A DNA stretch of 64,000 nucleotides, taken from NCBI GenBank assembly GCA_030062745.1, contig CP099839.1, positions 26,401,324 to 26,465,323 of the forward strand, given 5' to 3'. Positions 20,646-63,370 of this stretch are shown here, piece after piece. The stretch is from Capitulum mitella. Its lineage: Eukaryota > Arthropoda > Thecostraca > Pollicipedomorpha > Pollicipedidae. The first letter of the stretch is position 1. Each line of letters starts with the position of its first letter. A program made the translations under genes and the position numbers. Below the pieces are notes generated by a model. That model ran no database searches. It was not told the origin of the DNA and worked only from the letters and a program-made list of their open reading frames with translations.

Positions 20646-22310
20646 TATATATTCATATTCTACATATATGCATGTTCTACATGGTACAGCACAACATAAT
20701 AGAGCATCCTACCTTATATATGTATTATATTGTAATGCAATATAAAGTACAATTAACCATACTGGCATATTTTACATGTCTGACATTATGTTAGGTACAA
20801 TACATCATACATATAATGATGTAGTCAACTCTGTGAAATCATGTGTAGCATGCGATGGTGGCGCCACCGGTGGCCACCTTCAAACTACAATAGGGTCCGC
20901 CCGTTAGTACAACTAAGACTTGGACTCCACTATATCTATTACACAAGACGCCGGTCCAACGGTTCACTTCTTTCGAAGTCGAAATGCCCTTTATTACTGG
21001 TTCGCCGATGTGCAAAACGGATTAAGACTAACGACAATTTCATTTCCCGCGGTCTGCTCTGTGACTGAAGTACGACCGGGCTGAACTGTGTTGAACTGAA
21101 CTGAACTGAACTGAGCAGACTTCCTGAGTTGTTTCCTGACGGCCGTAAGAGGTCCCGCACGCTCCAGAACTTACCCATTCATACTGCGCTCGAATTAAGC
21201 CTATTTATCTACAGTAAAACGGACGACGAGTGGTGCAATAATTGAGCCAATATTACCCCACGACGCTGGTCTCCACCTATTATAACCGAAAACGAACAGC
21301 AGATTCTGATTCCCCGGATGGATCACCCCGACTTAGGCTCAGAAGCCACACCACCTAGCTATTGCAAGGAAAGATAAAGAGGTCTCTTCTCACATCAAAA
21401 CTTTTTTCAAAGTAAAGCATCAGCCCAGCCGAAGCTGGATCTAGCACATAACGGGAATGTTCCGCCTTTGTCGTCTTTGCAGTACTGATTACGTTGGTCT
21501 CAGGAATTAAAATGACTGTTGTTTGCTTACATTTTTGGAGGTTTCACTTTCACTCCTCCTCAGAAATATCAGGAGCATGAGAAATGTGATTATCCTACAA
21601 GCTATGTATTTAAAATGGGCGCCGAATGACCTTGTAGTCGGTGCGCCCCTAAACCCCAATAACCAACCATGTATTTAAAAGTTCCAACATCACTCATCCA
21701 TCATGATGCAGAACAGATATTTTAAGATCATTTCGTGGCGAGCGTTTGCAGTCACTTCGTCAAGAAACAGTTGATGACAGTATTCAGGTGAACAGGACAC
21801 AAGTTAAGTTTGCAGACATTGTTCCGAAACTCGGCATATGTTCACCTCTTATACATCCTTAACATTTTAAGTATTTTACCAAACCTTCCCAACCATGGGA
21901 TGGACATGCTTGTTTTGAGGAGTCAAGGGGATAAAATAAACGGAAACCAAACTGAATATCGAAAAAGCTCCACCCTATATCAACTCCTCCGATGTTACTA
22001 CATCGCCTGCACGGACGACATGAACGAGTCTATACCGTATCCATTTCAGTTCACCACCTGCCACTAGTGGTGCCACCGTCACGCACGACAAGCGGCTATG
22101 TCGAGTTGACGCCTGTCCGTACATTACCGAATGTGTCAAGTTCGCCATCAGGAAACAGTAAACTGTATGAACAGAAACAAGAAAACACCCGGAAAACATA
22201 ACATACTTACCAAAATCAATGAACTGCTTGATGGACAGTGGAGAAGGGTTGAAGCCAGAGTAATAGTCCAGCATTTGTTTCACATTTCTGAGACATCTAG
22301 ACAGCTTCAT
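10708..22310 (-). CDS. Pdk: Pyruvate dehydrogenase (acetyl-transferring) kinase, complete coding region
   Basis: Mitochondrial-matrix kinase that phosphorylates and inactivates the E1-alpha subunit of the pyruvate dehydrogenase complex. Exons on -: 22310-22211, 18199-17989, 17802-17618, 17350-17186, 15776-15604, 12406-12295, 11351-11242, 10875-10708. All eight join in phase at GT-AG sites and give 407 residues, the family's usual length (vertebrate PDKs about 400-435). Landmarks: [12 protein letters not shown] near residue 25; the regulatory helical domain with FLRQE.PVRLAN, RNRH..VV.TMA.G and [20 protein letters not shown]; then a GHKL ATPase domain with N-box ELLKNAMR (Asn about 246), G1 DQGGG (281-285), G2 GYGYG (316-320) and the conserved Asp-Trp (381-382). 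These ATP-binding residues are intact, so it should be active. The C-terminus is short and Gly/Asn-rich. Four-kb intron 1 hosts mobile elements. It resembles PDK3/PDK1 about equally; no isoform is assigned. Confidence 0.95.
11242..11351 (-). CDS. Pdk: PDK exon 7: G2 box
   Basis: Acceptor CCCCACAG, donor GTGCGC. Encodes [19 protein letters not shown] and [12 protein letters not shown], the ATP-lid end of the GHKL domain. Confidence 0.95.
12295..12406 (-). CDS. Pdk: PDK exon 6: G1 box
   Basis: Acceptor GGCAG, donor GTGAGT. Encodes [25 protein letters not shown] and DAPPLA. Its acceptor borders, and is the apparent source of, the minisatellite at 12407-12830. Confidence 0.95.
12407..12830. repeat. 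Minisatellite derived from the PDK exon 6 splice acceptor
   Basis: About eight imperfect units of 40-50 bp lie in intron 5, directly upstream (on -) of exon 6. On + each unit reads roughly CCTGGTCACAGATCTGC, then a G-rich stretch, then TGTTACACGGTG. On - that is TGCAG|ATCTGTGACCAGG, almost the true junction GGCAG|ATCTCTGACCAGG. The last units are diverged (GCCGCCGCC in place of the usual spacer). Confidence 0.85.
12831..15603 (-). other. Pdk: PDK intron 5, remaining part
   Basis: Mixed composition with GC-rich patches (about 13270-13460, 14040-14240, 15400-15600). Open frames here show no recognised domain. No repeat boundaries were seen. Confidence 0.5.
15604..15776 (-). CDS. Pdk: PDK exon 5: N-box of the ATPase domain
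   Basis: Acceptor GCGTCCAG, donor GTGAGG. Encodes [20 protein letters not shown] with the ATP/Mg-binding Asn, and ends NGQEDLTIK in phase 0. Confidence 0.95.
15777..17185 (-). other. Pdk: PDK intron 4
   Basis: Contains a GC-rich patch at about 16390-16670. Exons 4 and 5 join perfectly across this intron, so the open frames in the patch are not needed for PDK. Confidence 0.5.
17186..17350 (-). CDS. Pdk: PDK exon 4
   Basis: Acceptor TTCCCAG, donor GTGAGT. Encodes [20 protein letters not shown] and [14 protein letters not shown], the link into the GHKL domain. Confidence 0.93.
17618..17802 (-). CDS. Pdk: PDK exon 3: regulatory domain, second part
   Basis: Preceded by a long polypyrimidine tract and CAG; donor GTAAGT. 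Encodes [23 protein letters not shown] and [20 protein letters not shown], the most conserved stretch outside the ATPase domain. Confidence 0.95.
17989..18199 (-). CDS. Pdk: PDK exon 2: regulatory domain, first part
   Basis: Acceptor GCCACAG, donor GTAAGA. Encodes [33 protein letters not shown] and WYLQSL, the start of the helical domain that contacts the lipoyl domain of E2. Confidence 0.95.
19004..20242 (+). mobile_element. TTAA family-1 non-autonomous element, copy A (full length)
   Basis: Begins TTAACCCGCGCCCGACTG and ends CAGTCAGGGGCAGGTTAA, an imperfect terminal inverted repeat with TTAA at both ends. TTAA target sites and CCC/GGG ends are typical of the piggyBac superfamily. At 1.24 kb with no open frame it would be non-autonomous. 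The interior has AGGTCA-type half-sites near its 3' end (around 20070-20110). Confidence 0.75.
20604..20642. repeat. (TA)n microsatellite
   Basis: Uninterrupted TA dinucleotides followed by degenerate ATTCATAT units. Confidence 0.9.
21604..21680 (+). mobile_element. 53-bp hairpin retroposon-like insertion with 12-bp target duplication (copy 1)
   Basis: ATGTATTTAAAA occurs at 21604-21615 and again at 21669-21680. Between them lie 53 bp starting TGGGCGCCGAATGACC and ending CCCCAATAACCAACC. The inner GGGCGC...GCGCCC can form a hairpin. The second copy at 52311-52399 starts at the same base and has a longer AACC tail. Confidence 0.75.
22211..22310 (-). CDS. Pdk: PDK exon 1: start codon and N-terminal helix
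   Basis: ATG at 22310-22308; encodes [10 protein letters not shown] through [11 protein letters not shown], then donor GTAAGT. The basic start fits a mitochondrial targeting signal, and the LSIKQF.DFG block is diagnostic of the family. Confidence 0.9.
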
Positions 22311-29790: not shown

Positions 29791-30366
29791 AAACGCACCC
29801 CTGAAACAGGCCATACCGCGCAAGGAAGCCGTTTTTGTACTGCTATAGGCGGACAGCCAGAAATGACCAGCAGTTGGTCGCATCAGAGACGACCAGCCGG
29901 CTGCTGAGGGCCGCGTTCTCACGGGGCCCGCTGTGTCCCGCTGTGTGTCGATGCGTCTCCGCCACAGTCGACATTACGCTGTCCTGTTCTGATTTTATTT
30001 TTGCGCACGCTCGGCAGCCGCTGTGTCCTGTGTCGATCTGACCAGTCACTATATAGCATACTACGCGCTGTGCTCCGCTTGGGTAAAGTTATCAATTCTA
30101 CTCGGTGCTGAAAAACACTCAGTGTTACCTAAGCATGAAAGTGTTTTTAACGTCACATGGGGCCTTGTGGAGAACCGCCGGCTGCCCTTTTGAGTATCAT
30201 AGTCAAAGCATACGTTTGTAACCCCAGTCGTTCCGGAAAACCTCCATCAGTGACGCTCCAAAGTCTGCTGGCAATACACCGTTGTCGGCGTGTTGGCGCG
30301 ACCAGTCGCTGAGCGCTGTGTCTGCGTGCCGTGCTGACGCGTCGTGTCCCGCGCCCGCCAGCGCAG

Positions 30367-31952
30367 CGTCCGTCGGCCAGATGCTGTGCGGCATGTCGAG
30401 CGGCTACACCAGCCCGGCGCTGCCCGAGCTGCGCGAACAGATGGCGCTCACCAGCAACCAAGAGTCGCTGATCAGCGCGCTGCTGCCTCTGGGCGGCGCG
30501 CTGGGAGGCCCGCTGACCGTCTGGGTGATGGGCCGGCTCGGCCGCAAGGCCTCCTTCCTGCTGCTGGCCGTCTACTTCACGGCCGGCTGGCTGGCGGTGG
30601 CCTACGCCGGCTCGGCGGGTCCGATCATGGCCGGTCGGCTGGTGCAGGGGCTCGGCTGCGGTGCCTCCTGCCTGGCGCTGCCCAACTACATCGGCGAGGT
30701 GGCGGAGGCGCGCGTGCGCGGCCAGCTGGGCATCTTTACGCAGATGGGCTTCTGCCTGGGCACGCTGTTCGAGTTCGTCGTCGGCAAGTACCTGGCGTGG
30801 AACTGGCTGGCGGCGGTGTCGGCGTGCGTGGCGGCCGCCTGGCTGCCGTGCGTCACGCTGCTGCCCGAGTCGCCGCTGTTCCTGGTGACGCGGCGCCGCG
30901 AGGCGGCCGCCGCCGCCGCGCTGCGCCGCCTCCGCGGCCCCGCCTTCGACATCGCCGGCGAGTTGGCCGAGACGACGCGGTACGCGCGCGACGTGCTGCG
31001 GAGGAGCGCGCGGCCGCGCGACCTGCTGCGCCGCCAGTACCTGCGGCCGGCGCTGCTCGTGGTCGGCCTCTTCTTCCTGCAGCAGACGTCCGGTAGCGAC
31101 GCACTCACCTTCTTCACGGTGGACATCCTTCGCACGGCCGGCTCGACGATGGAGCCGCACACGGCCAGCATCCTGGCTTCGTTCACCTGGGTGCCGGCCA
31201 CGCTGGCGGCGGTGGTGGCGGCGGACCGGTTCGGGCGGCGGCCGTTGCTGCTGGCCTCCTCCTGCGTCACGGCTGCCAGCACGGCCACGCTCGGCGTCTT
31301 CTTCTTCCTGCGCGACGCCGGCCGCGACGTCAGCGGCTTCGGCTGGCTGCCGCTCTTCTGCCTTCTGCTCTTCAACCCGGCCTTCGCCTTCGGGCTCGGC
31401 CTGGTGCCCTGGATCGTCATCGGTGAGTGCCGCCGCCATCGTCGTGCCAGAGAGTGGCCCGTCTGGTCCTTGCATCATCATTCGCTTCTTTTCATTGGCC
31501 ATCTTTACAGCAGGTCCTCGTGCTGCACCACAGTGCCTCAGTTAACCTGTTGATTGGGCCGATAGTCGTCAGAAGCTTTCGTAAAGCGCCTGCGCTCTCG
31601 GCGTTCAAGGCTTCGTTCAGTAGACTGCCGCACTCGTTCCTCAACAAGGCCGAAGTAAATGCGGTAGGTATTGCCGTTGATTGCTATTGCTCATGCGACA
31701 TCTGTTTGCCTGTTTCCAGGTGAAGTATTTGCGCCCGAAATGCGGGGCCTGGGTGCCAGCTTAGGCACAGCCATGACTTGGACGGGCACCACCATTATCA
31801 CATTCAGCTTCAACGGCCTCGTGAGCGGCTTAACCGAGGCCGGTACGTTCTTGCTGTTTTCAGCCATTACCGCCTCTCGGCACACTTTTCTCAGTGTTTT
31901 TCCTCTTCGAAACAAAGGGGAAGACCCTCGAAGAGATAACAGACCACTTTAA
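30367..31952 (+). pseudogene. Tret1-like (SLC2) sugar transporter, left-arm copy with C-terminal frameshift
   Basis: Two exons are visible: 30367-31422 (donor GTGAGT) and 31720-31952 (acceptor TTTCCAG), joined in phase (G|GT). The first exon encodes most of a 12-helix major-facilitator sugar carrier: YTSPALPELRE in helix 1, GRLGRK after helix 2, PNYIGEVAEARVRGQLG in helix 4-5, PESPLFLV, QQTSG in helix 7 and DRFGRRP. Exon 2 begins EVFAPEMRGLGASLG. Compared with the right-arm copy, a single extra T at about 31875 shifts the frame after SAIT, so the last helix and the ETKGKTLEEI signature are replaced by an unrelated 25-residue tail. The N-terminal exon was not found. Family role: uptake of trehalose or hexose across the plasma membrane. 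Probably a pseudogene; a very recent one, since the rest is open. Confidence 0.75.
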
Positions 31953-37311: not shown

Positions 37312-39378
37312 CGTAATCACCCAAGTATAATGCTCCCATGTTCGTCCCAAATTTTAACATTAAAAGTTGGGGGAGCGTTATACTTGAGTATGTGAGAAAT
37401 CCCAGTTTGCAAAGTCAAATTCTTGTAAGGGGAGATCAAATTATGTAATAAATTTTATTAGTACGTTTGTGGTGTTTTATCAATCAATATAATACAGGAA
37501 GGGAAGTTGCAGGAATCGAGAAATCTGCTTAATTGAGCATCCAAGCCGGAACGCCCCCATCGCTTAGTTTTTCTCAGCCACCGAATAATGCTTCATCTTA
37601 TCGAGTGAAAGTTCACAATGAACAACTTGTGTAAGCGTCACTCATTTCATTCTTTATGAACAATAGAGGCGATGATCATTCATAGGGACGATCAGAACGC
37701 TCATCATTCGTAGAGCGCTGATCACAATAGAGACGGAGATCATTCATTGATTGGCCCGTGCAGGCAAAGAAGTTACAGTGAGAATGAACGAATGAACTTC
37801 TATGCGTCGAATGTTGTTAATTTACCGTTGTTAATTTGAACGACAATCATTCTGTATCCCCCAAACAGGCATGACTGACACTCCAGGATTGAAAAGAAAA
37901 AGGTCTTCTTATGAGGCTTCTTTCAAGCTAAAAGTCATCAAATTTGCAGAAGCAAATGGCAACTGGGGTGCTTCCAGAGAATTCACAATTCCACAGGCAA
38001 ATGTCAGGGTGTGGAGAAAGCAGAAAGAACTTCTGATTGAGCTGCCAAAAACCAAGAGCATGCAGGGGCCTTCCAGCCAAGTACCCGGACTTGGAAAAAG
38101 AGCTTGTGGAATGGGTGACTGACCAGAGATGCAGTGGCTACATTGTCACGATGCTTCACATCCAGCTAGAGGCTCTCAGAAGGAAGAGAGATCCAGGTTT
38201 CAAGGCTTCTCTGAATTGGGTCCACAGATTCATGAAGAGAAATGGCCTGAGCCTGAGGCAGAAGACAAAAATCTCTCAAAAACTACTTTTAGAACTTGAT
38301 AACAAAGTAATTTCATTTCACTCCTATGTGTTGAATCAAAGAAAACTGCATGACTTTGAACTCTCACAGATTGGGAACATGGACGAAACACCTCTGTGTT
38401 TTGACATGCCTGGCAGTAGAACAGTTGAGCCCAAGGGAAGCAAAACTGTCCAAATCAGAACAACTGGATATGAAAAGACACACTTCACCACAGTCCTGAC
38501 CTGTATGGCAGATGGAACTAAGCTCAAGCCAATGGTGATTTTTAAATGAAAGACAGCTCCAAAAGAGAAATTTCCAGCTGGTGTGGTGATCCATGTGCAT
38601 CCCAAAGGATGGATGGATGAAGAAGGAATTGTGCTGTGGCTCAATCGAGTTTGGAATAGCAGGCCTGGAGCTCTCCTGAAGAAGAAATCCTTTTTAGTGT
38701 GGGATCAGTTCGGAGCACACATGACTGACAGTGAAAAGAAAATGTGCTTCTCTCAACACCACCCAAGCAGTGATTCCTGGTGGCTTGACATCTATCCTGC
38801 AACCTCTAGATGTCGTTCTGAACAAACCGTTCAAGGACAGAATGAGGCAAAAATGGATGGCTTGGATGGCTTCTGGTCAGCAAGAACAGACCAAGAGTGG
38901 AAACTTCAAGAGACCTAGCCTGTCTCTAGTCTCTACTTGGGTCAAGGAAGCCTGGGATGACATTCCGTCTCAGATGGTTGTCAAGAGTTTCCTGAAGACT
39001 GGAATCTCAAACAATTTGGATGGCACAGAAGACGATGAACTCTGGAAAGAAGACACAGAAGAAGAAAATGAAGAAGATGAAGACCAACTTGACCCCAACT
39101 GGGATACAGATGCAAGACTAACTCCGGAAGAGTTTCATGAACTTTTTGATGACAGTGATGATGATGATTTTGATGGATTATGATTGAAATGCAGAAAATG
39201 TAATTTTTTTATCGGAAATAATTTTTTTTCATAAAAAATCTGAAAACTTCTTTTTAACAGAAAAATCTGAAAACTTAGGGGGAGCGTTATACTTGGGTAT
39301 GACAAAAAAGACCTGTTTTTCGATTCAAAAGTGGGGGGAGCATTATACTTGGGTAAGCATTATACTTGGGTGATTACG
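37312..39378 (+). mobile_element. Tigger/pogo-type DNA transposon
   Basis: Terminal inverted repeats CGTAATCACCCAAGTATAAT at the left and ATTATACTTGGGTGATTACG at the right. Extra copies of the same TATACTTGGGTA word lie just inside the ends (about 37376, 39288 and 39345). Carries one transposase gene, now broken. Insertion is into a TA-rich palindromic microsatellite, consistent with the TA target preference of the superfamily. Confidence 0.82.
37871..39183 (+). pseudogene. Tigger/pogo-type transposase, degenerate
   Basis: Starts at ATG 37871 with a basic helix-turn-helix region (KRKRSSYEASFKLKVIKFAE, VRVWRKQ), then a second DNA-binding part (LEKELVEWV...QKTKISQKL), then the DDE-type catalytic core: IGNMDETPLCFDM (first Asp), VWDQFGAH (second Asp) and SILQPLDVVLNKPFKD, and an acidic tail ending DSDDDDFDGL. 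Breaks: a frameshift at about 38065-38085, an in-frame TGA at 38547-38549 where a Trp is expected, and a second frameshift at about 38730-38745. Otherwise well conserved, so inactivation looks recent. Family role: cut-and-paste of its own element in the nucleus. Confidence 0.88.
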
Positions 39379-51680: not shown

Positions 51681-52970
51681 TCGCCCCGCCTGGCGGGAGG
51701 TTGACCGCCCCCTAAGGTTTTTCAAAGATTCCAAGAACGAACGAACGCAACGCAACGAAACTTTTTGTACCTTTTGCTAGATCACTTTTACTCCGTGTCA
51801 AAGTTTTAACTTCAGGTCAAGTCAGGCGTCTGACCTAGGTCGGGTCAAGCGGACTTATGTCCAGAAATGTTTAGCGCCCTGTTACTTTTTCGGGAAACAT
51901 GGCATCACGATAACACTTTCAGATGTTAGAGATCTTGATTGATGCAACAAATGTGCTATCTCAGATTTTTCAGAATTTGCCAGGTCATTGATCTGAGGTC
52001 AAGTCTATTTTCGAGACATGTCGGTTTTGTTGAAAACCGACGAAATTTCTCATAATATTTTGAGATCGGGGTGATGCAGACACCCAGTTGCCGTCAACGG
52101 CCAAAGCATCAATGGCCTCCAACCATTGGCCTGACGTAAGGTCACGAATAACCGTTATGAGCCAAAATGCGCTGCCGTTAAAATCAGCGATGAATTACTC
52201 ATATAGGATAGAAAATTGCAGAACTGGCTCGCACAACTGCAAGCAATACCATAAAGTTAAAAAAAAATTTAAAGAAAATTGCATGTCGTAGAAATAAACA
52301 GGCCCTCGCGAATAAAACTCAGCGATTGGTTGGTTGGTTATTGGGGCTTAGGGGCGCACCGACTGCAGGGTCATTCGGCGCCCAAATAAAACTCAGCGAA
52401 TTATGTATATTGATAACTACTGATTTTTCCAAAATTTAAGCATGAAAAACCATCACAAGAACCACAAAGTTCCCTATATTGCACATGGATAGGTTTACGT
52501 CGCGAAAATAAGGAAACGCCAAAATTTAGTCCCGTTAACTTCATAACGCGTTTGGCTAAGGCCTCCGCCGGCAGTCGACGCGAAAATTGCCGTGTCTAAT
52601 TCAACGTTTCGGCGCATGTATTGAACAGATCAGTGAAACTGAATGTGTATCGGCATCTCCGAATTTTCATCTGTTCGTTGGTGCATTTACCTAGACTCGT
52701 TGGTGCATTTACAACAGCCCTTGAGATGCAGGCCGCTCCTCGGTTTCATGCAGTCGGCTGTGAAAAAGCATATATAGGACGTAAATGGCTTACATATTAT
52801 CCAGAATTAAAGCTGACATCAGGTTTGAGCCCTGCTTGTCACGAGCTTCCCAACGATGCGCTTATTTTTGTCATGCGATCAACCGTTCTTGAGTTACAGG
52901 GGAACGGTAAACCGCCTCTTCCACCCAATCGGGCGTGATCGGCGCCGACCGCCAGTCAGGTGCGGGTTAA
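51681..52970 (-). mobile_element. TTAA family-1 element, copy E (reverse orientation)
   Basis: The interior matches copies A and B in reverse. The right edge ends GGTGCGGGTTAA at 52967-52970; the left TTAA end is missing. It carries the second copy of the 59-bp hairpin insertion at 52311-52399. Confidence 0.72.
52311..52399 (-). mobile_element. 59-bp hairpin retroposon-like insertion with 15-bp target duplication (copy 2)
   Basis: AATAAAACTCAGCGA at 52311-52325 is repeated exactly at 52385-52399. The 59 bp between them, read on -, begin TGGGCGCCGAATGACC and end in AATAACCAACCAACCAA. It differs from copy 1 at three positions plus tail length. The host element's sister copies show the same site without the insertion. 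Confidence 0.78.
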
Positions 52971-55292: not shown

Positions 55293-56658
55293 CTGGAAAC
55301 AGGCAAACAGATGTCGCATCAGCAATAGCGATCGACGGCAGTACCTACCGCATTGACTTTGGCTTTATTGATGAAGGAGTGTGGCAGTCTTCTGAACCAA
55401 ACCTTGAACGCCGAGAGCGCAGGCGCTTTGAGAAAGCTTCTGACTATCGGCCCAATCAACAGGTTAACTGAGGCACTGGGGTGCAGCACGAGGACCCGCT
55501 GTAAAGATGGCCAATGAAAAGTAGATGAAAGAAAATGAAGCGAATGATGAGGCAAGGACCAGACGGGTCACTCTCTGGCACGATTATGGCGGCGGCACTC
55601 ACCGATGACGATCCAGGGCACCAGGCCGAGCCCGAAGGCGAAGGACGGGTTGAAGAGCAGAAGGCAGAAGAGCGGCAGCCAGCCGAAGCCGCTGACGTCG
55701 CGGCCGGCGTCGCGCAGGAAGAAGAAGACGCCGAGCGCGGCCGTGCTGGCAGCCGTGACGCAGGAGGAGGCCAGCAGCAGCGGCCGTCGCCCGAACCGGT
55801 CCGCCGCCACCGCCGACGCCAGCGTGGCCGGCACCCAGGTGAACGAGGCCAGGATGCTGGCCGTGTGCGGCTCCATTGTCGAGCCGGCCGCACGCAGGAT
55901 GTCCACCGTGAAGAAGGTGAGCGCGTCGTTACCGGACGCCGGCTGCAGGAAGAAGAGGCCGACCACGAGCAGCGCCGGCCGCAGGTACTGGCGGCGAAGC
56001 AGGTCGCGCGGCCGCGCGCTCCGCCGCAGCACGTCGCGCGCGTACCGCGTCGTCTCGGCCAACTCGCCGGCGATGTCGAAGGCGGGGCCGCGGAGGCGGC
56101 GCAGCGCGGCGGCGGCGGCCGCCTCGCGGCGCCGCGTCACCAGGAACAGCGGCGACTCGGGCAGCAGCGTGACGCACGGCAGCCAGGCGGCCGCCACGCA
56201 CGCCGACACCGCCGCCAGCCAGTTCCACGCCAGGTACTTGCCGACGACGAACTCGAACAACGTGCCCAGGCAGAAGCCCATCTGCGTGAAGATGCCCAGC
56301 TGGCCGCGCACGCGCGCCTCCGCCACCTCGCCGATGTAGTTGGGCAGCGCCAGGCAGGAGGCGCCGCAGCCGAGCCCCTGCACCAGCCGACCGGCCATGA
56401 TCGGTCCCGCCGAGCCGGCGTAGGCCACCGCCAGCCAGCCGACCGTGAAGTAGACGGCCAGCAGCAGGAAGGAGGCCTTGCGGCCGAGCCGGCCCATCAC
56501 CCAGACGGTCAGTGGGCCTCCCAGCGCGCCGCCCAGCGGCAGCAGCGCGCTGATCAGCGACTCTTGGTTGCTGGTGAGCGCCATCTGTTCGCGCAGCTCG
56601 GGCAGCGCCGGGCTGGTGTAGCCGCTCGACATGCCGCACAGCATCTGGCCGACGGACG
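55030..56658 (-). CDS. Tret1-like (SLC2) sugar transporter, right-arm copy
   Basis: Two exons on -: 56658-55603 (acceptor CGGCGCAG, donor GTGAGT) and 55292-55030 (acceptor TTTCCAG, TAG stop), joined in phase; 438 residues are visible. Sugar-porter landmarks: YTSPALPELRE in helix 1, LPLGGALGG, GRLGRK, PNYIGEVAEARVRGQLG, PESPLFLV, DRFGRRP, GEVFAPEMRG and the terminal ETKGKTLEEI. These place it in the arthropod trehalose/hexose facilitator group at the plasma membrane; the substrate is inference. The helix-7 motif, normally QQ.SG.N, is QPASGND, so a conserved Gln is Pro. The N-terminal exon (cytoplasmic start and initiator ATG) was not identified upstream, so the gene model is incomplete. Extremely GC-rich third codon positions create long antisense open frames. 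Confidence 0.82.
55603..56658 (-). CDS. Transporter right copy, exon with helices 1-10
   Basis: 352 codons, no stop or frameshift. The acceptor CGCAG is conserved in both copies, whereas a nearer CCAG in the left copy is CCGG here, so the conserved site is preferred. Confidence 0.75.
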
Positions 56659-57900
56659 CTGCGCCGGCGGGCGCGGAACACGACGCGTCAGCACGGCACG
56701 GAGACACAGCGCTCAGCGTTCAGCACGGCGACTGGTCGCGCCGCCAATGTGCCGCCCACGCCACGGCGTATTGCCGGCAGACCCTGGATCACTACGAATG
56801 ATGCTTTGCCGCAACGACTTGGCAACGACTGCAAATGCATGCGTTGCCTTTGATGCTCAAAACTGCGGCATGGTGGTCCTGCACAAGGTCTCATGTTGTT
56901 TGAAAAATACTCGGACGCTTATGGAACACTGCAAGTTTTTCAGCATCGAATGGAAAAGATAACTTCATCTGTGTGAAGCATGGCGCATAGTATGCCACAA
57001 AGCTGGTCTGATCTGGTCAGATCGGCGCAGGTCACGGCGGCTGCCGGCCGTGAGCGAAAACAGAAACAGAACACAGCAGCTGAACGCCGACTGCTGCGGA
57101 GACGCACCGACACACAGCGGGACACAGCGGACCCGGTGAGAACGCGGCACTCAGCAGCCGGCTGGCGGTCCCGGAGGTAACCAGCTGCTGGGCTGGTTAG
57201 AAGTGCTGGGCAGCCAGCCAGAAATGCTGGGCATTTCTGGCCATCCGCCCGCATCACAAACGGCTCCCCTGCGCGGTACTGCCTGAGTCAGAGGTGCGTT
57301 TCTATGGCCCTCATATTGCCCAGATCCTGCCAATATTGATTTGTGCATTACCAATGTTGTTTTAAGCCCTACCAATGCTTTTGTTCCTTCAACAATTTTA
57401 AATCGCATTTTATGTAAAAGGGTAGACTGGATTAGAAATAGAAGCAACAATCAGGAATTTCAGACAGCAGAGTGGTTGTATCTATCTATATATCTATACG
57501 TATATATAGTTTTTGGTAAATGATAAAAGAAAAATCTCCGTCGTTCAAATCAAACATGGTAAATCCGTTCAGGAACTCGCATTTGGAGAGGTTAGGATGT
57601 CCGGCCCTCGGCACAGCCCTACCAATCGTTTACACAAACCGACAGCACTGGCCTGTTTTGTGGAGACCAAGGTTCAGCTCACGGATGGCTCACCTGTCAT
57701 CACGGACACAAACTGAGGGAACACTGCACCCTTTGACATGTTCTCAAATGAAATCGTTTAAGCCACATGAACCAGCCACGAGACCTCAGCGCGGCCGGTT
57801 GACGGTCGCAGCTAGCTGTAAAGGTCTTCCTCTTATCGCTCGAGATTGATTACCTTCCTCTTGAGAGGTCGTGTCCTGCCACCTGCTGGTAGAAGATAAA
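56659..57900. other. Upstream flank of right transporter copy
   Basis: Should hold the first exon and promoter, but no start exon could be defended. Includes the right-arm counterpart of the microsatellite-cored repeat (about 57330-57660). Confidence 0.4.
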
Positions 57901-62449: not shown

Positions 62450-63370
62450 ATTGCCATAAATGTCACAAAGTAACAGCAACCAGCTCAGATGCGTTCTCGA
62501 GATATTCAAGAAGAGCAGGTGGGGGGCACAAAAAGACCCCCATTCCAGTGCGCGTGTTAAGAGACAGCTACAGCTGATTCGAGCTGTAAAAACAACAGGT
62601 GTCATAATGCGTTCCGGCTGGAAGGTTTGGAATCTCCAGAACGTACGTGCCAAAAAGTATTGGTGGCAAACAAGGTTCGGTACCGAAAGAGCAAGAGTCA
62701 GGTCACCCAAAAACAAGAGGTCGCCCAAAAGACCCGCATCCGCAAACTGTCCCGCGGATCACATGAAATCGGAAAGAACGGGGCATTGCCATGGACGACG
62801 AAAGCTACTTCACCTATCACGAGAGGTATATGTCAGGAAACCTTGGGTACTCTGTTGGAGCACGTCCAGCAGAAGTCCAGCAAAAGTACAACTGAGGCCA
62901 GAGAGCAAGTTTCCCCGTAATCTTTTCGTGTGGTCCGCCATCTCTCTCAGGGGTGTGACAAAGCCGGCTATCATGCCGGGTATGGGTAATGTTGATGGTA
63001 ACATGTACCGTGAGAAGTGCGTAGGAAATGTGCTCATCCCATATTTGGATGAGTACTGTTTCGAGAGGAACATGTTGATCTGGCCAGACTTGGCCAGCGC
63101 TCATTATGCGAAGAAAACGCTCAAGTTGCTGGAAGAGGCCAGAGTGCCGTATGTAGTGCGTGACAGCAGTCCCCTGTGTGCACCAGGGGTGTCCTACTGA
63201 GGACATCTGGGGCATCATTAAGCAGAGGATGTATCAGGGAGACTGGTACGTAACATCCAAAGTCGCCCAAAAGCGCTGGATGAGTCAGGTGATCGCTGCT
63301 CTGGACCTGGAGATACCGCGTAAAATGCTGGTGCGCGTACCCAGGCGCGTGCGTCTTGCCGACAGATGAG
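62450..63370 (+). pseudogene. Tc1/mariner-superfamily transposase, degenerate
   Basis: Pieces lie in three frames. The first catalytic Asp region reads MDDESYFTYH (about 62792-62821), then NLFVWSAISLRGVTKP, then LIWPDLASAHYAKKTLKLLEE with the second Asp (codon at 63087), then PTEDIWGIIKQRMYQGDWY with the third acidic residue (about 63199), ending RVRLADR. At least two frameshifts (about 62880-62925 and 63165-63195) and a stop break the gene. The upstream basic part (62460-62760) may be the DNA-binding region. No terminal repeats of its own were found, so only the coding part is recognised. Confidence 0.8.

Follow-up and report, generated by a model that had tools for sequence, protein, structure and literature searches.

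The 3'-terminal hairpin of a young LINE occurs as a 53-nt solo insertion with a near-constant 5' end in Capitulum mitella

A 53-nt insert was analyzed in a 64,000-nt stretch of Capitulum mitella DNA (contig CP099839.1, positions 26,401,324 to 26,465,323, forward strand; hereafter "the window"). The insert was found to be the last ~53 nt, i.e. the 3' hairpin and the AACC tail, of a young autonomous LINE of the same genome that encodes APE endonuclease, reverse transcriptase (RT) and RNase H. Copies of this unit sit at many unlinked loci, and they feature a fixed 5' end, an AACC tail whose length differs among copies, and target-site duplications (TSDs) of 9–18 bp. Insertion of the unit by target-primed reverse transcription (TPRT), as proposed in an earlier, sequence-only reading of the window, is thus as well supported as sequence allows. 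What is unexpected is that the start is fixed and that tail-only insertions are in large excess. The LINE transcript probably gives rise to a discrete RNA comprising the 3' hairpin, which the LINE machinery would insert by TPRT.

The sequence-only reading had described 53 nt between perfect 12-bp duplications, and this was confirmed in the letters. The span that it gave, 21604–21680, holds for the unit together with its duplications; the unit proper occupies 21616–21668. The features are as follows, in positions of the window:

21604-21615, plus strand: left TSD, ATGTATTTAAAA (letters read; TSD search, locus L001)
21616-21668, plus strand: solo 3'-terminal LINE unit of 53 nt, loop type CTTGTAG (letters read; genome pattern search)
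21617-21648, plus strand: hairpin GGGCGC / TGAC...GTCG / GCGCCC (predicted fold)
21649-21668, plus strand: 3' tail, CTAAACCCCAATAACCAACC (letters read)
21669-21680, plus strand: right TSD, ATGTATTTAAAA (letters read)
52326-52384, minus strand: copy 2, solo unit of 59 nt, loop type CCCTGCAG (letters read)
52385-52399, minus strand: TSD of copy 2 on the 5' side of the unit, TCGCTGAGTTTTATT
52311-52325, minus strand: TSD of copy 2 on the 3' side of the unit, TCGCTGAGTTTTATT

Copy 2 had been said to share the first T, to carry a longer AACC tail and to be flanked by a different duplication. All of this proved correct on the minus strand (52384–52326), the duplication being 15 bp long, and 35 nt of copy 2 (C1:26453673-26453707) are identical to the young LINE 3' end. 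The window unit matches the 3' end of the LINE designated L094 at all positions except two in the loop and one in the tail. The folding of GGGCGC against GCGCCC was recovered as a predicted hairpin (z = -2.4, -15.3 kcal/mol) with one stem of 6 bp and one of 4 bp; 4 of 200 shuffles were equally stable.

A LINE with an AACC-tailed 3' end had been predicted, and it was located. In the L094 family, which has an open frame of 1,244 aa, the 3' UTR ends in ...GAAGTTA-TGGGCGCCGAATGACCCTGCAGTCGGTGCGCCCCTAAGCCCCAATAACCAACCAACC, where TGGGCGCCGAATGACCCTGCAGTCGGTGCGCCCCTAAGCCCCAATAACCAACCAACC represents the unit and its AACC tail. The ORF of L094 stops ~130 nt upstream of this sequence, and TTTTTAAT is present 21–28 nt upstream of the unit. 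For 20 further LINE copies, the sequence at the distance predicted from their RT matches was retrieved, and the unit closes all of these except L115. A first RT survey had returned no units in the 30 best RT loci with 1.5-kb flanks (one strand, unoriented loci); this absence meant little, because a single strand had been scanned and other LINE families were involved.

The protein of the parent LINE contains APE endonuclease and RT domains above the cut-offs, and its RNase H match reached 25.1 bits against a cut-off of 25.8, the domain being split by the boundary of the analyzed locus. Another LINE of the genome (L088) gave an RNase H match at 38 bits. The nearest solved relatives by sequence in the PDB are LINE-1 ORF2p, the TRAS1 endonuclease and R2. 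From the order of its domains (APE, RT, RNase H), we take the parent to be an I-superfamily-like LINE; as in such LINEs, the three domains share an ORF and the 3' UTR ends in a hairpin with a tandem tail.

The genome (477,042,490 bases in 16 contigs, of which C1 comprises 45.52 Mb) was searched for copies, and their flanks were examined for duplications, as the sequence-only reading had suggested. The first 33 nt of the unit returned 1,762 places at up to 3 mismatches, and the reversed-pattern control returned none; this total, like the 35-mer total given below, takes in LINE-linked ends as well as solo copies. Forty-seven distinct copies were picked as best-scoring or exact. By a fixed score, a TSD was present in 38 of these, compared to 0 of 925 shuffled flank pairings. 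Additional solo copies yielded TSDs in 15/18 and 33/37 cases, compared to 1/1,086 in the shuffled control. Left-TSD offsets of 0–3 were used in both controls. When 100 distinct solo copies were surveyed, 89 had a TSD and 11 had no clear TSD by the score used. The left TSD abuts the unit's T in 67 of the 100, lies 1–5 bases away in 18 and lies 10–27 bases away in 4; of these offsets, the shuffled controls bear on 0–3. The upstream 400-bp flanks of the 47 copies contained one related pair only, a local tandem.

A search pattern with the unit's T as its first letter returns T by design, and the start was therefore checked independently by a count of other first bases and by a search with the inner core. 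The exact LINE-type 35-mer starting with T has 899 copies in the genome; with any other first base, 15 were found. All 29 copies from the inner-core search (L001–L028) start with TGGGCGCC or TGGGCACC. Copies cut inside the 5' stem arm were located at 13 places, using a pattern that misses units keeping four or more arm bases. Among 65 cases, the target base that follows the TSD is T in 13, and the first T was therefore counted as part of the unit. The unit starts one nucleotide 5' of the stem. The near-constant start base, together with the prevalence of solo insertions, suggests that a very short stretch of the LINE RNA is often all that the LINE machinery copies.

LINE-linked ends number 145 in the genome at up to 3 mismatches, or 167 when a looser upstream pattern is used. 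The first 40 exact copies on C1, taken in listing order, comprised 37 solo and 3 LINE-linked copies (L154 and L155 have common flanks). The sequence-only reading had named copies that are always the end of a longer element as evidence against a mobile unit; the whole unit is indeed a LINE end, but these 37 copies are not joined to a LINE. Among the matches listed, there were 86 exact LINE-linked ends, of which at least 44 have an RT match 1.5–3 kb upstream (a lower bound, as the RT matches compared with these ends were 53 of 150, namely those of the family concerned and near ones). At most 42 of the 86 are truncated within the next 2.3 kb. These ends are spread over some 2.3 kb, compared to several hundred copies with one start base.

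The loop types CTTGTA (four matches), CTTGAA, CCCTGTA and CCCTGCA were each found on LINE-linked copies among the matches listed, and the LINE-linked copies L118 and L124 also have main loop types. Because the four main loop types occur on LINE-linked copies, the solos track the LINE's own history. This points to LINE transcripts as the origin of the solos and argues against a SINE lineage distinct from the LINE. Loop variants were also considered as proof of an independent unit lineage; this use of them was rejected, as the main variants are present on LINEs.

The LINE-linked copies appear clustered. Among the matches listed, 18 of the 86 exact ends are on C14 and 3 are on C1, which is twice as large. 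Clusters were noted on C14 (about 6.05–6.16, 20.9–21.2 and 22.65 Mb), C8 (9.386–9.444 Mb), C10 (9.595–9.62 Mb) and C16 (2.57–2.62 Mb and 5.654/5.664/5.674 Mb), with some copies lying about 10 kb apart. The exact unit copies on C1 look dispersed among the matches listed.

A sister LINE (frame of 1,237 aa) from the same genome was used for comparison. Its 3' hairpin is of the same plan and has a similar predicted stability (-14.7 kcal/mol, compared to -15.3 kcal/mol for the unit), and it is followed by an AAGT or AATC tail; an RNase H-like region was seen by reading the protein. Sister LINE ends were found at 73 places in the genome at up to 2 mismatches. Twenty ends were chosen by eye, away from RT matches, from 39 exact places. 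LINE sequence lies upstream of 19 of these, and one (L187) is solo; it starts two bases outside its own stem, and its TSD was read by eye. A LINE enzyme of this type is, then, not halted by a stable hairpin as such. Solo insertion is frequent in the unit's LINE family and rare in the sister, and it does not follow inevitably from the presence of such a hairpin. This control concerns another enzyme, and a stop specific to the enzyme of the parent LINE is compatible with it. Two kinds of tail, AAGT repeats and AATC repeats, were observed behind the same hairpin in the sister LINE copies (L089, L090 and L177–L196).

Several explanations were weighed for the constant start. LINE copies are commonly 5'-truncated, and ordinary random truncation would account for the fact that the unit equals the 3' terminus of an autonomous LINE from this genome. 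That reading is refuted by the distribution of 5' ends and has practically no chance of being correct: one start base is seen in 899 of 914 exact copies, the scatter of truncation points found in 5'-truncated LINE copies is lacking (899 T-starts compared to 15 others), and no more than 42 of the 86 exact LINE-linked ends among the matches listed are truncated within the next 2.3 kb. An independent minimal SINE, with RNA produced at one or more dedicated master loci and with merely the 3' end in common with the LINE, agrees with more of the data. Stringent-type SINEs have a fixed 5' end, many copies and a LINE-derived 3' tail; the present unit is short and RNA-like, has a fixed 5' end, a high copy number and TSDs, and shares its 3' end with a partner LINE. 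Yet no separate head or body (tRNA, 5S, 7SL or other RNA) was found, as the whole unit lies inside the LINE end and contains nothing beyond the LINE tail. Moreover, no common promoter was seen in the upstream flanks of the 47 copies, the single related pair being the local tandem, and the four main loop types are on LINEs too, with no unit-only lineage seen. We regard an independent SINE as quite improbable. The earlier view of the unit as its own kind of tiny SINE was abandoned, since its whole sequence is the LINE 3' terminus and its main loop types occur on LINE-linked copies.

A possible but rather unlikely explanation is that ordinary LINE RNA is the template and that the RT, or a protein bound upstream, stops just past the hairpin, such that LINE insertions are truncated at one hot spot. 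It would fit the identity of the solos to the LINE end, the loop types that they have in common, the position of the 5' end at the hairpin exit, and the lack of head-to-tail dimers described below. The sharpness of the boundary (899 to 15) argues against it, as do the sister LINE, which has a similarly stable hairpin and 1 solo among 20 ends, and the thinness of truncation elsewhere, 44 of 86 exact LINE-linked ends among the matches listed having an RT match 1.5–3 kb upstream. A polymerase impeded by a hairpin would be expected to halt as it enters, not once the hairpin has been fully copied. Because the boundary follows complete copying of the hairpin, a template that ends at the hairpin is favored.

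Under the preferred explanation, a discrete RNA template, the LINE enzyme would recognize its own 3' hairpin and AACC tail and insert the unit by TPRT; the 3' end and tail common to unit and LINE point to this enzyme as the agent of the solo insertions. The template would most often be a discrete short RNA ending one nucleotide 5' of the stem, and we infer that the RNA template, not the enzyme, sets the 5' end. Such an RNA could be what is left when LINE RNA is degraded from its 5' side as far as the hairpin, which the enzyme would protect; alternatively, it may arise by cleavage or by initiation at the unit's start, to which the upstream TTTTTAAT of the LINE might be relevant. A stronger proposal was also formulated, in which the LINE transcript would routinely be reduced to a ~53-nt 3'-hairpin RNA, this RNA and not the full transcript would be the enzyme's main template, and the recognition hairpin would be a complete mobile unit, i.e. 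a headless, promoterless "SINE" would be possible. We consider this proposal evenly poised between right and wrong.

Some solo copies have extra bases between the left TSD and the T. Ten or more were found in 4 of 100 solos: L170 (27), L008 (18), L009 (13) and L128 (10). The 27 extra bases of L170 resemble, by eye, the complement of the AACC tail, and L008 has a second, partial unit, likewise starting at T, inside one TSD pair, in keeping with the preferred explanation. Head-to-tail unit dimers within 24 nt were sought using exact patterns, and none were found beyond 3 matches in one local 70-bp tandem array. If unit RNAs have a physical end, frequent template jumps by the enzyme from that end onto the tail of a second unit RNA should produce dimers; their absence counts against the preferred explanation, as do the 11 of 100 solos with no clear TSD. 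The array (C14:2193195-2193379) seemingly consists of the unit plus a flanking duplication, as if a small satellite had formed from a retroposed unit.

Other identities were tried and rejected. A MITE was ruled out by the lack of terminal inverted repeats, the variable AACC 3' tail and the 9–18 bp TSDs. A tRNA-like SINE was rejected, as Rfam gave no match at 21500–21800 and no tRNA genes were found in the window. By eye, the 53 nt show no pol III A or B boxes. Nineteen places were considered as evidence of another long element with the same tail and a different loop, but by eye they are indel-bearing or 5'-truncated units, with no second family.

SINEs with a LINE-derived 3' tail include those mobilized by stringent LINEs of the UnaL2 type. 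The present unit is likewise short and non-autonomous, with a 3' hairpin and short tandem tail from a LINE, TSDs and a fixed 5' end; it differs in being the LINE tail alone (53 nt), with no tRNA-, 5S- or 7SL-like head found and no promoter seen. Truncation points of LINEs are normally scattered. Like 5'-truncated LINE copies, e.g. those of avian CR1, the unit is a LINE 3' end, but about nine in ten of the exact ends sampled are solo, with one common start one nucleotide outside the hairpin. In PMC8665684, the 3' hairpin and microsatellite of CR1 are described as a potential RT recognition site. Chimeric retrocopies formed by template jumping are reported for the rice blast fungus (PMC2104539). 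L008 and L170 likewise have extra pieces inside one TSD pair; the unit differs in that additions of at least 10 bases are confined to 4 of 100 solos and that the search for unit dimers was negative. A limited search of open-licence literature returned no description of a repeat made solely of a LINE tail and having a fixed 5' end, nor of mass tail-only insertion.

If the preferred explanation is true, the minimal RNA for LINE insertion with a precise 5' end would be one hairpin plus a tandem tail. It also suggests a possible route to the birth of a SINE, in which the LINE tail moves first and a head is gained later. What sets the 5' ends of LINEs would become testable, as a sister LINE in the same genome has a similarly stable hairpin and behaves differently. 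Copies of this size would presumably be missed by repeat annotation that sets a minimum length near 80–100 bp.

Additional features were noted in the window, with names assigned from ORFs read by eye. A sugar-transporter-like reading frame is present in two inverted copies (30307–31492 and 55533–56718; 97% complementarity across 1,186 nt), which belong to a larger set of inverted matches. Frames resembling transposases of the pogo/Tigger and mariner/Tc1 types are located at 38037–39183 and 62460–63200, respectively.
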